Positions 45,217 to 50,301 of a stretch of DNA of 50,301 nucleotides are shown piece by piece. Position numbers and translations under genes: made by a program. The number at the start of each line of letters is the position of its first letter. The stretch's first letter is position 1. The notes below the pieces were generated by a model. That model ran no database searches. It saw only the letters and a list, made by a program, of their open reading frames with translations, and was not told the origin of the DNA. The DNA comes from an uncultured Bacteroidales bacterium (GTDB lineage Bacteria; Bacteroidota; Bacteroidia; Bacteroidales; Muribaculaceae), in assembly GCA_947072905.1 (NCBI GenBank), contig CAMTKF010000014.1:1-50301 (forward strand). The letters run 5' to 3'.

Positions 45217-45246
45217 TTTGAAATTCGTATAAATGTTGTAATTTTG
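45217..45246 (+). promoter_or_regulatory. promoter of the ECF sigma operon
   Basis: TTTG at 45217-45220 and TAATTTTG at 45239-45246 with an 18-nt spacer. It predicts a leader of about 90 nt. This looks like a housekeeping promoter rather than a self-recognised ECF promoter. Confidence 0.65.
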
Positions 45247-45344
45247 TTCCGGAGTATAGTTCTATTTGTTTTTTCAATCAAAAAAATTGATTTTTTCCCC
45301 ATTGAGAGGTTAGGTTTTTTGCAAGTGACGTGTCTTATTGGTGT

Positions 45345-45830
45345 ATGACGACAATCAGTGACATAGAACAGCTTTTCAGAACCCATTACACGGCGATGCA
45401 CCGCCTTGCGATGCTGATACTGCGCGATGAGGATGCTGCGCGGGACATTGTGCACGATGTCTTTGAGTCGCTTCTCAACTCGGGCCTGACAGACGTGTCA
45501 GCTCAGTATCTGCTTCGTGCAGTGCGCAACCGTTGTCTGAACTATCTCCGCAGCTTCACTACCCGTGAGCGCTTCAAGCAACTTTATGCTGTGGACGAGC
45601 ATGAAATAGCCGACGATGAGTGGCCCGATGATGAAACGATTGCCATGATTTATTCAACAGTGGCAAATGATCTGACCGATGCCTGCCGCAGGGTGGTGGA
45701 ATTGCGCTTTACCGACGGAATGAGCTATAAGGATATTGCCGGCACGCTGGGTATAAGCGAGGTGGCTGTGTATAAGCATTTGCGTCATGCAATAGATGTC
45801 TTACGTAAAAAACTGTCTCAAAATGGATAA
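45345..45830 (+). CDS. ECF-type RNA polymerase sigma factor
   Basis: A 161-residue extracytoplasmic-function sigma factor. Region 2 (about 8-75): LFRTHYTAMHRLAMLILRDE, then DAARDIVHDVFESLL and LLRAVRNRCLNYLRS. Region 4 (about 105-155): DACRRVVELRFTDGMSYKDI followed by an HTH AGTLGISEVAVYKHLRHAID. Length and the paired genes fit Bacteroidetes FecI-like factors. A GTG 15 nt upstream is in frame, but the ATG at 45345 aligns better with family N-termini. The stop overlaps the anti-sigma start by 8 nt. Presumably it directs RNA polymerase to genes of this signalling unit once the anti-sigma factor is relieved. Confidence 0.92.
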   Translation: MTTISDIEQLFRTHYTAMHRLAMLILRDEDAARDIVHDVFESLLNSGLTDVSAQYLLRAVRNRCLNYLRSFTTRERFKQLYAVDEHEIADDEWPDDETIAMIYSTVANDLTDACRRVVELRFTDGMSYKDIAGTLGISEVAVYKHLRHAIDVLRKKLSQNG

Positions 45831-46464
45831 GATAGACCGACTGCTTGATACTATGGAGCATCCCGATAGTTACTCCGAAAAAGATATTGAGGCGATGCTC
45901 GCCGACCCGGAAGTCAGAGAGGTGTACGACCTGCTTGACAAGACAGCGGCAAGCCTTACGTCAATACCGACTCCCGATGTAGATGCCGAATGGGCTGCAT
46001 TTGAACGCGCCCACGGTAAACGTCGTTTCAGAATACTCAATCTGTTTTCGCACAATCTCGCCGCAAGCATTGCCATCGCTGTAGCCTCGCTCGCAGCGGT
46101 GGCAGCCGTAGTGGGAGTGAGCGTGAATTATGCTCTCAACCAAAAGACTGAAGCCCCGGCAACCGGGCCGGTCGCAGCAGTAATAGAAAATGTAATTTCT
46201 AACGACACGGTAATTATTGCCGAGCCCGCACCTGCAGCAGCTCCCGAAACGATAGTATTCGACAACGAGCCGCTGGAGACCATCGCCGACCATATAGCCG
46301 GGTACTATGGCTATAGTGTGGAGTACACAGCAGATGCTCCGAAGTCATTGCGACTTTACTTCAGATGGAATCAGGCTCAGACGCTCGATGAGGTTATCGA
46401 AAGTCTCAACAACTTCGAGCAGATACATATCTCCGTAAAGGACAGAACCATAAAAATACGCTGA
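45823..46464 (+). CDS. short FecR-like anti-sigma factor with DUF4974 domain
   Basis: A 213-residue membrane protein. A cytosolic N-terminus (about 1-75, where it would hold the sigma factor) is followed by one transmembrane helix (about 78-103, Ala/Val-rich) and an Ala/Pro linker. The periplasmic C-terminal domain (about 144-213: VFDNEPLETIADHIAGYYGY, then SLRLYFRWNQAQTLDEVIE and NNFEQIHI) matches DUF4974. Typical FecR anti-sigma factors exceed 300 residues and carry a central FecR domain, which is missing here. It overlaps the sigma gene and precedes the receptor by 4 nt. The ATG at 45823 is chosen; a frame extends further upstream inside the sigma gene. Confidence 0.88.
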   Translation: MDKIDRLLDTMEHPDSYSEKDIEAMLADPEVREVYDLLDKTAASLTSIPTPDVDAEWAAFERAHGKRRFRILNLFSHNLAASIAIAVASLAAVAAVVGVSVNYALNQKTEAPATGPVAAVIENVISNDTVIIAEPAPAAAPETIVFDNEPLETIADHIAGYYGYSVEYTADAPKSLRLYFRWNQAQTLDEVIESLNNFEQIHISVKDRTIKIR

Positions 46465-46468
46465 CATC

Positions 46469-49012
46469 ATGGCAAGAATAATAATGCTTATCTGCGCCAT
46501 GTCAGCCTTTGTCATGGCTGGTGCCGAGACATTCTCATACCGGTTCAACTCGACTCCGCTCCCCAAGGCGATACAGCGGATTATGGAGAATCATCCCGAC
46601 CTCGACATCAATTTCATATACAACGAACTTGAAAACTACAACACCAGCGCCATGGTAAAAGCCGGCAATGCCTACGATGCCTTGCGTCAGACAATAGGTT
46701 TAAATCCCTTAACGGTAGTAAAAGCCAAAGACACTTATTATGTAGAAGCATTGCAACATGGCAAATACATATACACAGGCCAAGCATTAGGCAAAGATGA
46801 TGAGCCGGTTGCAGCTGCTACAGTAATGCTTCTCGCTCCAAAAGATTCAACGGTTATAACATACGGTATAGCTGATGAGAATGGTCGATTCAGAATACCC
46901 TGTGACCGTACCAAAGTAATTGCCAAACTGTCTTGCATGGGCTATAAGACAACATATCATCAGTGCAATACTTTCAATATCGGAACAATAATAATGCCCG
47001 AAAATGCAGTAAAATTGAGCGAGGTGAAGATTGAGGCAGATAACGCGCATCTATATTCTGACCACTCGATATACATGCCTACAGCGCGTCAGAAAAATGT
47101 TGCTGCTGATGCAGTTGCTCTGTTGAGTCAAATGGCTATACCGCAACTTGATGTAGATCCTGCAACCAAGTCTGTAAAAACAATCACCGGACAATCGGTA
47201 GCTATTTATATAGATTATGTTTCTGCATCGCAGCAGGATTTGTCAGGCATGAAAACTACGGATGTAAAGAAAATAGAATATCTGCTTTACCCTAAAGATC
47301 CGCGTTTTCACGGTGCGGATTATGTTGTCAATTTCATAATGCAGAAATATGAATATGGCGGATATACCAAGGTAAGTGCGTCCAAGATGTTCGGTACGAA
47401 CAAGGCTAATGCGTCGGTTTATTCTAAATTCACATATAAGGAAATGACATTTGACATATATGCCGATGAATCATATATGACCGACCGGCATAGTGGTACA
47501 TCATCAACAGAACGATTCTTTTTTCCGGACTTGTATGGTCTTGGTGAGAAATCAATAGAAAGGATTTCCACCCCCGGCTCTTCAAGATTTCGGAACAATG
47601 AAAATAATGTCACATTCCGTGCTTTGTATATTACCGAAAAGGCACAGATTTCAAATACTCTTTCATTCAACAATACATCAACTCCCCGGAAAGATTATGA
47701 AACTGCGGTGTCTTACACAGACGAGATTTTGCCCACAACCACAACAAAGACCATAGCTTCAAATCATAATCTTTCATTGAATTATAAAAATGAAACTTAT
47801 ATAGGATTCAATGAAAATGTAGGGACATTTATAGAGGCTGTATATGAATACGGTAATAACAAATCCGAATCAAATTACCGCCAAGCCGAGATAGACATTA
47901 TAAATAACGCAACTGAACATTCACATTGCGGACGCATTACTCCAAGTCTTGTATGGAACCTGAATGAGCATAGCAGTCTCATGCCATATCTGCATGGCGA
48001 ATATTCAACATATTCACTCGATTATTATGGGTCTTCACCGTCAAAACAGAAATATAATGTGTGGGGATTTGTCGGTGGCGTAAAGTATAAATATACTCAG
48101 GATAAATGGAGTGCAGGCAGTCAATTCGGATGGACGTATGCCAATATAGATTTGACCGGAACTAAAATAGAGGATAATTATCCGATGGGTAATGTATTTG
48201 CAACGTTCTCGCCAAATAAGCATAACCAGTTTGAGGTGAGATATGCCTTCACAAAGCAAGTGCCAGAAACTTATCAGAAAAGCCCCAATATGCTTCAACA
48301 AGACGAGCTGATGTGGTATACCGGTACACCCGATCTGAAAAACAGTTGGAATAACTACGTTCATGCTGTATATACATGGATACCTGACAACAGATGGCAA
48401 CTCGCCGCTACCGGCAAAATATTTATGGTCGATGATAGGGTGGTAACACGCTATTTGCCGACAGGCCCCAATGGCACAATGCTCCGCCAATATGTAAACA
48501 ATGGCAGTTTCAAAAGCAGCTCCATTGGAGTGAAAGGAACGGCAAAATTTCTTGACGGTAAATTGGCTGTCACCTTACGTCCTGAGATGTGGTTCAGAAA
48601 GACGACCGGAGAGTATGCTTTAACATACAACGAACTTACGTGTGTTGCTCAGCTCACATGGTATTTTGGCAACTTCTACCTCGATGGGTGGTATGTAACA
48701 CCCAGTACTTATCCCAATGAAGAATCAGGTATCAAAGAACGTAAACCGTCGCGTTATCAAATACAACTAGGATATGGCAAAGGTCCATGGCGAGCATCTG
48801 CTACAGCATATAATTTTTTGCGGTCAAGTTGGGAATACAGCCGTGAGACTCTGTCAAGTAAGTATTATGGGTTTGAACGGAGCATTTATAGTCCGGACTT
48901 TCACATGAGCTTTCAGCTATCACTTGCGTATACATTCGGTTACGGTAAGAAAGTTAGACGTGGCGATGAAGTTACAGGTGTCGGTACAGGCTCATCGGCA
49001 ATATTGAAATAA
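46469..49012 (+). CDS. outer-membrane beta-barrel receptor with STN signalling domain
   Basis: An 847-residue outer-membrane protein. Signal peptide (1-19), then an STN (secretin/TonB N-terminal) domain at about 20-95 (FSYRFNSTPLPKAIQRI, INFIYNELE). A carboxypeptidase-regulatory-like Ig domain follows (about 98-185, TGQALGKDDEPVAAATVMLL), then a plug-like region (about 200-300). The large barrel (about 300-835) ends in alternating strands such as SFQLSLAYTFGYGKK. It resembles TonB-dependent transducers and the OMP_b-brl_3 family. The STN domain next to a sigma/anti-sigma pair implies FecA-style surface signalling. No SusD-like partner follows, so it may be a sensor rather than a glycan importer. 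The ligand is unknown. Confidence 0.85.
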   Translation: MARIIMLICAMSAFVMAGAETFSYRFNSTPLPKAIQRIMENHPDLDINFIYNELENYNTSAMVKAGNAYDALRQTIGLNPLTVVKAKDTYYVEALQHGKYIYTGQALGKDDEPVAAATVMLLAPKDSTVITYGIADENGRFRIPCDRTKVIAKLSCMGYKTTYHQCNTFNIGTIIMPENAVKLSEVKIEADNAHLYSDHSIYMPTARQKNVAADAVALLSQMAIPQLDVDPATKSVKTITGQSVAIYIDYVSASQQDLSGMKTTDVKKIEYLLYPKDPRFHGADYVVNFIMQKYEYGGYTKVSASKMFGTNKANASVYSKFTYKEMTFDIYADESYMTDRHSGTSSTERFFFPDLYGLGEKSIERISTPGSSRFRNNENNVTFRALYITEKAQISNTLSFNNTSTPRKDYETAVSYTDEILPTTTTKTIASNHNLSLNYKNETYIGFNENVGTFIEAVYEYGNNKSESNYRQAEIDIINNATEHSHCGRITPSLVWNLNEHSSLMPYLHGEYSTYSLDYYGSSPSKQKYNVWGFVGGVKYKYTQDKWSAGSQFGWTYANIDLTGTKIEDNYPMGNVFATFSPNKHNQFEVRYAFTKQVPETYQKSPNMLQQDELMWYTGTPDLKNSWNNYVHAVYTWIPDNRWQLAATGKIFMVDDRVVTRYLPTGPNGTMLRQYVNNGSFKSSSIGVKGTAKFLDGKLAVTLRPEMWFRKTTGEYALTYNELTCVAQLTWYFGNFYLDGWYVTPSTYPNEESGIKERKPSRYQIQLGYGKGPWRASATAYNFLRSSWEYSRETLSSKYYGFERSIYSPDFHMSFQLSLAYTFGYGKKVRRGDEVTGVGTGSSAILK

Positions 49013-49020
49013 ATAAGCAT

Positions 49021-49060
49021 TGAATTTAGGATATTTTAATGCATAAATATCCTAAATTCA
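49021..49060. terminator. perfect 16-bp hairpin after the receptor gene
   Basis: Arms TGAATTTAGGATATTT / AAATATCCTAAATTCA with an 8-nt loop, 8 nt after the receptor stop. It lacks a T tract on the plus strand, so it may be a terminator aided by other factors, an mRNA-stabilising 3' hairpin, or an operator for the next promoter. Confidence 0.65.
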
Positions 49061-49072
49061 AAATACTATGAT

Positions 49073-49080
49073 TATCTTTG
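49073..49080 (+). promoter_or_regulatory. -7 box of the lipoprotein / DKNYY-repeat pair
   Basis: TATCTTTG fits TAnnTTTG; no TTG at the -33 distance, so it may need an activator or an alternative sigma factor. The leader is about 54 nt. Confidence 0.6.
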
Positions 49081-49140
49081 CTACCGATAGATTACTGTCG
49101 GTAACGGCATTCCACAAACAATAAGGCGTTATTTCGCACA

Positions 49141-49599
49141 ATGAAACAATTATTATACCATATCTGCCTTTTGTCGCTTATGATATTGACGTCATGCGAA
49201 GTTCGTAGCGGCTACCTTGATTATGATAAGCAGAACACGGTTGCCATGCTCACGGATGTGGAATGGTTGGTGGTTTATGCAGATTATGGTCTTGGCAATG
49301 AGTATACATACGATGATGAGACCAAGATCTATTCGTTTGGTAAAGATTCCAAAGGATGGATTGCAACCGGTTCGCTGAAAGATCCGTCAGTTAAGAAAGA
49401 TGTGAGATACTTTCAGTGGTCTTTCACCACAGAGAATTATACCGTAATCTATACAGCCGGTAACTCCACCGATGGATATTTGCTTATTGAAAAACTGACG
49501 CCTACAGAAATGTGGTTGCAATGGACGGCAAAAGATCCGGTCTTAGTCCCTAATCAGAATACTACTTTTTACAAGTTCAAAGCACGTAAAAAACAATAA
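49141..49599 (+). CDS. small lipoprotein of unknown family
   Basis: A 152-residue lipoprotein. Signal MKQLLYHICLLSLMI and lipobox LTSC (Cys19). The mature domain is beta-rich with many aromatics (WLVVYADYGLG, YFQWSFTTENYTVIYTAG, MWLQWTAKDP). It ends FYKFKARKK, which suggests a small barrel or lipocalin-like fold, but I recognise no family. It starts behind its own promoter after the STN receptor gene and is 9 nt ahead of the DKNYY-repeat gene, so the two are probably co-transcribed. Given the upstream sigma/anti-sigma pair, it is a candidate output of that pathway (inference). Confidence 0.8.
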   Translation: MKQLLYHICLLSLMILTSCEVRSGYLDYDKQNTVAMLTDVEWLVVYADYGLGNEYTYDDETKIYSFGKDSKGWIATGSLKDPSVKKDVRYFQWSFTTENYTVIYTAGNSTDGYLLIEKLTPTEMWLQWTAKDPVLVPNQNTTFYKFKARKKQ

Positions 49600-49608
49600 C
49601 AAAAGATC

Positions 49609-50220
49609 ATGACAATAAAAAGAATTGCAATAATATTAGCGCTTATCCTCAGCGCAGCGAGTGTTACAGGACAAGAGCGGCACCGGGATCACAGATTTCA
49701 TAACAGTTATGAGACCGAGAGACATCATAGGCCGTCGTACTTTGTCAGTGGTGATAATGTGTTTTTTCATGGGCAGGCAGTAAAAGACGCATCGGCCTCG
49801 TCATTCAGCATACTGCGCGACGGGTACGCCAAAGATAACTGGAATGTATATTACTGTGGCGTGAAGATTGATGGCGCAAGCAGTAATTCATTCAAGGTGC
49901 TCGGTTATGGATACGCCAAGGATAACTGGGCAGTATATTACAACGGTGCTAAGATAGAGGGGGCATCGCCGGATTCCTTTACAGTGCTTCAGGATTGGTA
50001 TGCCAAGGATAATTGGAATGTGTACTATGACGGTATAAAAATTCAGGGAGCTTTTGAGAACAGCTTCAAGGTACTTCGCGACGGTTATGCAAAGGATGAC
50101 TGGACCGTGTATTTTGACGGTAAGAAAATAGATGGAGCTTCTGAAAACAGCTTTAAAGTGCTGCGCGACGGTTATGCCAAAGATGATTGGAACACCTATT
50201 ATTGGGGAAAGAAAATTTAA
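49609..50220 (+). CDS. exported DKNYY-type repeat protein with His-rich N-terminus
   Basis: A 203-residue secreted protein. A signal peptide of about 21 residues (ending SVTGQ) leads into a short basic, His-rich segment (ERHRDHRFHNSYETERHHR, about 23-41). One degenerate and four full repeats of 29 residues plus a 15-residue partial copy follow to the C-terminus. The repeat consensus is YAKDNWNVYYDGxKIDGA followed by SxNSFKVLRDG, matching DKNYY repeats. These occur in uncharacterised secreted proteins and probably form an aromatic-rich beta structure. There is no catalytic motif. It is second in the lipoprotein pair behind the STN/sigma operon. Function is unknown; binding of a glycan, peptide or metal is speculation. 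Confidence 0.82.
   Translation: MTIKRIAIILALILSAASVTGQERHRDHRFHNSYETERHHRPSYFVSGDNVFFHGQAVKDASASSFSILRDGYAKDNWNVYYCGVKIDGASSNSFKVLGYGYAKDNWAVYYNGAKIEGASPDSFTVLQDWYAKDNWNVYYDGIKIQGAFENSFKVLRDGYAKDDWTVYFDGKKIDGASENSFKVLRDGYAKDDWNTYYWGKKI
49825..50217 (+). repeat. 87-bp in-frame tandem repeats (DKNYY units)
   Basis: Four complete 87-bp units and a truncated fifth, each beginning at a Tyr-Ala-Lys-Asp codon block. The last two complete copies are most alike at DNA level, which suggests recent duplication. A degenerate unit precedes them. Confidence 0.85.
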
Positions 50221-50261
50221 AAAGTACCCGTTGGTTGAATTAAAATTCTAAATATTTACAA

Positions 50262-50301
50262 ATGAAAAAGTTGCACAATTTGCAGATTATTAGTAAATTA
50301 G
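50262..50301 (+). CDS. start of a further gene (partial)
   Basis: An ATG 41 nt after the DKNYY-repeat stop opens a frame (MKKLHNLQIIS...) that runs to the window edge. Met-Lys-Lys resembles the start of an exported protein's signal peptide. Only 13 residues are visible, so this may be chance. Confidence 0.4.
   Translation, partial: MKKLHNLQIISKL

Follow-up and report, generated by a model that had tools for sequence, protein, structure and literature searches.

What does the extracytoplasmic function (ECF) sigma factor encoded near the end of a Muribaculaceae contig switch on? The window analyzed here is a 50,301-nt stretch of DNA (contig CAMTKF010000014.1, positions 1 to 50,301) from an uncultured Bacteroidales bacterium, and the locus in question, at 45217..50301 with all features on the forward strand, encodes five proteins. 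A 161-aa ECF sigma factor (45345..45830; Pfam Sigma70_r4_2 and Sigma70_r2 above cut-off, TIGR02985 below that model's cut-off) is followed by a short 213-aa membrane anti-sigma factor (45823..46464), an 847-aa TonB-dependent-transducer-like receptor (46469..49012), a lipoprotein and a DKNYY-repeat protein. The original prediction for this locus was that the receptor senses a ligand or partner cell and that the sigma factor then switches on the lipoprotein/DKNYY pair. We consider it likely instead that the locus is a ligand-triggered, self-amplifying cell-surface-signaling switch whose main output is itself; this, like all functional statements made here about the system, is a prediction.

Directly before the sigma ATG lies a predicted autoregulatory ECF promoter (AGGTTAG..GTGTC, 45307..45338), in which a -35 element, GGTTAG (45308-45313), and a -10 element, GTGTC (45330-45334), are separated by 16 nt, the usual spacing of ECF promoters. 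It is kept in 40 loci including the window (two of them, L010 and L101, are identical), where GGTTAG or a near variant, T-rich bases and a -10 element of the G[TG]GTC type precede the sigma gene, and the motif ends 6 nt before the ATG in 36 of the 40. Across 1.19 Mb of locus sequence, a position weight matrix (PWM) returned 46 sites of at least 15 bits, against none in an equal-sized Markov control. Forty of these precede the sigma gene (one duplicates the window), two precede receptors (L032 and L096), three lie about 0.8 kb 5' of sigma and one is in L041; the training locus L009 scores below 15 bits. The window's own site reaches 45.9 bits.

Searching 297 family genomes with at most one mismatch gave 24 sites in 19 genomes, and one control hit. 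Twenty of the 24 precede this sigma gene, 18 with 38 nt between motif start and ATG and the others with 60 and 90; one precedes a receptor without a sigma gene, in a genome where a complete copy of the system is present as well, and three lie about 0.8 kb upstream of sigma, before a lipoprotein gene adjoining the operon. The window's own genome contains a single perfect site, that of its own operon; the other match within three mismatches has three, and the reversed control pattern gives one. On contig C8 the genome carries another, divergent copy of the system, whose variant elements GGTTTAG and CTGTC stand at an equal distance from its ATG. In L032 and L096, which are without sigma and anti-sigma genes, the promoter is retained and precedes the receptor by 85 and 142 nt, respectively (L032 6916-7001; L096 6859-7001). 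The contig of L032 carries a complete copy of the system elsewhere (L087), which suggests control in trans.

The best sign that the neighboring sigma factor, rather than some other factor, would read this element is a covariation among the 39 loci that have sigma, anti-sigma and a full receptor. The second base of the GKGTC element is T in all 22 loci with Asn at sigma residue 66 and G in all 17 with Lys, without exception. This residue lies 11 residues past a tyrosine aligned with a tryptophan of SigL, and in the excerpted text of PMC6411747, sigmaH N92, 11 residues past W81, contacts the -11 pair; by way of the SigL alignment, residue 66 corresponds to the position of N92 as given there. On a tree of the sensor head (sigma, anti-sigma and receptor residues 1-178), base and residue change twice, jointly. 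The Lys66 rows do not form a single clade (approximately unbiased test, p-AU 1.8e-6), the separate case being L009, a long branch in which the motif register is uncertain by one base and reads G either way.

Several observations weigh against reading the sigma factor as a switch devoted to its own operon. Sigma residue 48 tracks the -10 base equally well as residue 66, and a sign test on just two independent changes is bound to fall short of significance (p 0.5). The search pattern was derived from sequences upstream of sigma genes, some supplied by the genomes searched, so that only its absence elsewhere is informative. When two mismatches are allowed, 49 genomes of the genus yield nine sites and four control hits; six of the nine precede this sigma type and three (L120, L127 and L128) lie elsewhere. 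Those in L120 and L128 look like chance. The L127 site (1501-1597, genome G017) lies 65 nt upstream of another outer-membrane receptor-like gene, one with neither an STN domain nor a sigma gene; this gene is a possible target in trans, as G017 itself carries sigma copies. The PWM site in L041 (9008-9039) precedes no recognized part of the system; an ATG follows it at the customary spacing, but no recognizable sigma gene, and it is perhaps a remnant. In one lineage (L085, L088 and L094), the upstream promoter lies 51-61 nt ahead of a gene for a 203-206-aa lipoprotein that has no Pfam match (the L085 protein was scanned), and because of this second promoter the output there is not always the operon alone. 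An alternative is that the receptor is mainly a sensor and that sigma, acting at weaker promoters or in trans, also governs scattered genes, other outer-membrane receptors among them. Barrels that diverge strongly among loci with near-identical sensor heads, the promoters before receptor-type genes without sigma in L032 and L127, and a strict pattern that overlooks weak sites would all suit a scattered regulon. We nevertheless regard it as unlikely, since the window's own genome has no credible second site at three mismatches, the runner-up among PWM sites in the window reaches 8.3 bits, and the predicted plug-barrel fold is that of importers.

The neighbors that the original prediction named are present: the lipoprotein (49141..49599) has the lipobox ILTSC (by reading) and a lipocalin-like fold, and the exported DKNYY-repeat protein (49609..50220) matches PF13644 (E 2e-36). 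As the main output of the sigma factor, however, the pair is very unlikely, and we have rejected it in that role. No sigma promoter was found before either gene (best PWM scores, -19.9 and -19.8), and a 17-bp hairpin (49020..49061; -19.3 kcal/mol, z -5.7), a likely operon boundary with no T run after it on the forward strand, sits between the receptor and lipoprotein genes. Routine absence of the pair from homologous loci had been named beforehand as the outcome that would speak against the idea, and such loci do routinely lack it. Among 42 loci with full-length receptors, 33 of which extend 1.2 kb or more past the receptor, a lipoprotein homologue occurs within 2 kb downstream only in the window (1/42) and a DKNYY gene only in the window and L011 (2/42), leaving 41 loci without the former and 40 without the latter. 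Neither is present in the nearest orthologues, L032 (85%) and L035 (82%), and the genus genome G068, which has an L035-type promoter and sigma, contains no match to the lipoprotein or DKNYY protein. On the other side, both genes adjoin the window receptor, and a different lipoprotein gene bears the sigma promoter in the L085, L088 and L094 sub-lineage. DKNYY genes also lie 51 nt after the L011 receptor and 25 nt after the STN-less receptors L048 and L051, and the L107 receptor has a lipoprotein homologue shortly before it, so that a loose association between pair and receptor remains, which an accessory surface role fits better than output. The two genes are probably no target of the switch. 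That the lipoprotein is separately promoted, as had been proposed, is plausible, given the hairpin and a Bacteroidota-type -7 box (TAnnTTTG) at 49073, before the lipoprotein gene; the matching -33 box is absent.

A role of this kind would be that of BtuG toward BtuB or XusB toward XusA, with the lipoprotein, and perhaps the DKNYY protein, acting as a locally recruited surface partner of the receptor under its own promoter. We rate this as possible, if rather doubtful. The lipocalin-like fold, the repeated occurrence of DKNYY or lipoprotein genes beside family receptors, and fold matches that include Bacteroides TonB-dependent transporters with surface lipoproteins (8blw and 9gbc) are consistent with it. 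Lipoprotein homologues are found in only four of the 49 genus genomes, the window's own included, and after one of the 42 full-length receptors, and because they are so rare the lipoprotein cannot be a required partner; PF13644 is found in 10 of the 49, again with the own genome included. BtuB-BtuG and XusA-XusB resemble the present receptor in being TonB-dependent barrels of the same fold class with a lipoprotein nearby, as judged from structure titles; no sigma/anti-sigma head is named for them in those titles, and a partner role for the lipoprotein here is putative.

The architecture supports the sigma/anti-sigma/STN-receptor transducer that had been proposed, including the overlapping sigma and anti-sigma genes, which share 8 nt (ATGGATAA, 45823-45830). 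The anti-sigma factor has a cytoplasmic part, one hydrophobic segment (by reading) and a C-terminal, STN-like FecR_C domain (PF16344, E 6.7e-12). No central FecR (solenoid) domain was found in its 213 residues at E up to 1, in line with the original prediction, and 11 relatives in the 12-row alignment are equally short. Because this solenoid domain is absent, the protein is a variant and no strict FecR, as far as its sequence indicates. At a strict E of 1e-15, its profile matched only the own genome out of 119 from the order, and a sequence comparison with solved structures gave nothing convincing for it (best E 0.21) or for the receptor (best E 0.22). The receptor begins 4 nt after the anti-sigma stop, the spacing originally noted. 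Its STN domain, claimed at the same time, stands on the predicted order of strands and helices, and we describe it as a predicted STN-like domain (residues 21-98; 46529..46762). It is 77-90% identical to those of eight compared sigma-type receptors. Pfam returned no STN match, an hhalign comparison with two local STN domains did not back it (E 0.1), and the FoxA chain 6i97_B (a VIA row) aligns from residue 19 of the receptor model onward at an rmsd of 9.3. A carboxypeptidase-regulatory-like domain follows (PF13620; residues 99-178; 46763..47002), detected in 27 of 31 relatives (E up to 0.01) and at E 0.003 in the window, where it falls below the curated cut-off. The plug and beta-barrel (residues 201-828; 47069..48952), delimited by segment identity, give fold matches in the predicted receptor model that place the protein among TonB-dependent plug-barrels, and the receptor is accordingly a predicted TonB-dependent transporter.

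The receptor appears to be a mosaic. Residues 1-178 are 71-93% identical, by segment, to those of L066, L072 and L090, and the barrel is 17-28% identical to theirs, while the window plug and barrel are 55-77% identical to the STN-less receptor L033. When sigma, anti-sigma and residues 1-178 are combined in one tree (39 rows), the window groups with L035, L052, L066, L072, L090 and L092 (support, 100/99), a group that the barrels reject (p-AU 2.6e-42; 55 rows, omitting six of the 42 full-length rows, namely L008, L011, L013, L034, L087 and L101, and keeping 19 of the 63 STN-less rows). In the barrel tree (105 rows, after five partial or odd rows of the 68 STN-less ones were dropped), the window, L032 and L035 fall into a clade of 49 rows, 45 of which lack STN, and beyond two orthologues the closest kin of the window barrel are STN-less receptors. 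Judged from these sequences, the sensor head (promoter, sigma, anti-sigma, STN and regulatory domain) and the plug-barrel have different histories. The junction of the two modules is the linker preceding the plug (residues 179-200; 47003..47068), delimited by segment identity, which contains LSEVKIEA, a TonB box by resemblance only. The STN label changes eight times on the barrel tree, seven of them forced, compared with 33.1 in shuffles; this count comes from a quick tree with long branches flagged, and it shows clustering plus exchange, the argument being carried by the incongruence test. Sigma and anti-sigma were found together in 39 loci. Sigma lies upstream of 39 of the 42 full-length receptors, the exceptions being L032, L096 and L076 (cut by a contig end), and of one of the 68 STN-less rows (54 with at least 1.2 kb upstream), L104, which is a piece of a full-length gene that has been interrupted. 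Conserved heads beside variable barrels also raised the idea of phase-variable shuffling of the barrel, on which we make no claim either way. By our reading, the signaling half appears to have moved between different receptors. The full proposal is that a portable sensor head has been grafted at the TonB-box linker onto varied SusD-free barrels, with promoter and sigma drifting together through an Asn66-T/Lys66-G code that helps to keep paralogous switches apart; we would give it about an even chance. If it is true, each host gets a private, self-contained amplifier. No title in our literature search described either the module swap or the promoter code, and we claim nothing beyond that; Muribaculaceae are not mentioned among the matches listed for literature on ECF/anti-sigma systems.

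The computed features, namely the gene layout, the conserved and nearly exclusively placed promoter, the covariation with sigma, the predicted transporter fold and the mosaic receptor, are compatible with the following mechanism for the self-amplifying switch. A basal amount of receptor would be produced, and a ligand bound at the outer-membrane plug-barrel would alter the contact between the receptor STN domain and the STN-like end of the anti-sigma factor. The latter would let go of sigma, or be cleaved and then free it, and sigma with RNA polymerase could use the promoter at 45307-45338, with a putative transcription start such that sigma, anti-sigma and receptor form one near-leaderless operon. 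Receptor number would then rise by positive feedback, restrained by the anti-sigma factor made alongside. The likely purpose would be induced uptake of the ligand, presumably TonB-driven, via a SusD-free TonB-dependent transporter. That SusD is missing, as first noted, holds for the five proteins scanned, the available sequence ending at 50301.

The best reading of the locus is a new version of cell-surface signaling with a portable sensor head. Like the Fec, Fox and Has systems (FecI-FecR-FecA), it has an ECF sigma factor, a membrane anti-sigma factor with an STN-like C-terminal domain and a TonB-dependent receptor, which bears an STN domain there and a predicted STN-like domain here; the receptor gene is a sigma target there and, going by promoter prediction and covariation, may be one here. 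Unlike them, it lacks the FecR solenoid domain and has no other transport genes in the operon. In Fec/Fox signaling, according to PMC11637429, the receptor's STN domain meets the anti-sigma factor at its STN-like end, a contact reported to protect the latter before the signal. Excerpts of PMC9249621 report fecIR and hasI as not autoregulated, whereas here a single operon with its promoter before sigma has predicted autoregulation. The Bacteroides SusC/SusD loci controlled by ECF/anti-sigma pairs belong to the same phylum and, like the architecture predicted here, have receptors with STN and carboxypeptidase-regulatory domains. The regulatory domain precedes STN in their SusCs, according to PMC7782687, in contrast to the order STN, then regulatory domain in the 847-aa receptor of this locus, which also has no SusD among its five proteins. 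The Dma/Das dual-membrane anti-sigma factors of Bacteroides are a further case in Bacteroidota of an ECF sigma factor controlled from the outer membrane; Dma, as portrayed in extracts of PMC13088901, is a single protein that reaches from the outer membrane into the cytosol, and in the window and 12 aligned loci anti-sigma and barrel are separate genes. The present analysis corrects a plausible but unsupported guess about the target of the switch, and it assigns to a gut Muribaculaceae sigma factor a concrete regulon that can be tested, with a single promoter and mainly a single operon. It suggests that signaling heads and transporter barrels are recombined as modules, by which ligand specificity could shift without regulation being rebuilt, and residue 66 with the -10 base offers a natural sigma-promoter pair for laboratory testing.

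The basal expression assumed above may come from a possible housekeeping promoter, a tentative pattern match (TTTG ... TAATTTTG, 45218..45246). TAnnTTTG occurs in the 160 nt preceding sigma in 16 of 39 loci (mean 5.5 and maximum 12 in 200 shuffles), and together with a -33 box in seven of 39 (shuffle mean 2.2, maximum 7), which suggests a basal promoter ahead of the autoregulated one. The sigma start is best placed at the ATG at 45345, the mechanically called GTG at 45330 being disfavored because it lies inside the predicted -10 element, and the anti-sigma start is best placed at the ATG at 45823. The contig seems to end at 50301, 81 nt past the DKNYY gene, because the genome-derived loci L002 and L116 stop there.

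The receptor closes with a conserved tail ending SAILK (48953..49009), and 85 of 110 open reading frames of the family end in ILK. Outer-membrane proteins usually have an aromatic C-terminus, from which this tail differs. Across the receptor family, S[AG]I[LM]K stands at the exact C-terminus, about 20 residues past the last predicted strand. The window tail is 59-82% identical to those of five module-mates whose barrels are only 17-34% identical, and its codon pattern has five matches in the own genome, three of them within family receptors. As for gene neighborhoods, an STN-less family receptor and a complete sigma operon point away from each other in L066 and L083, and in L096 such a receptor converges with the sigma-less full receptor. 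In L006 and L071, whose receptor rows are identical, a different ECF sigma gene (E ~1e-10 to the window sigma) lies 167 nt past the STN-less receptor.

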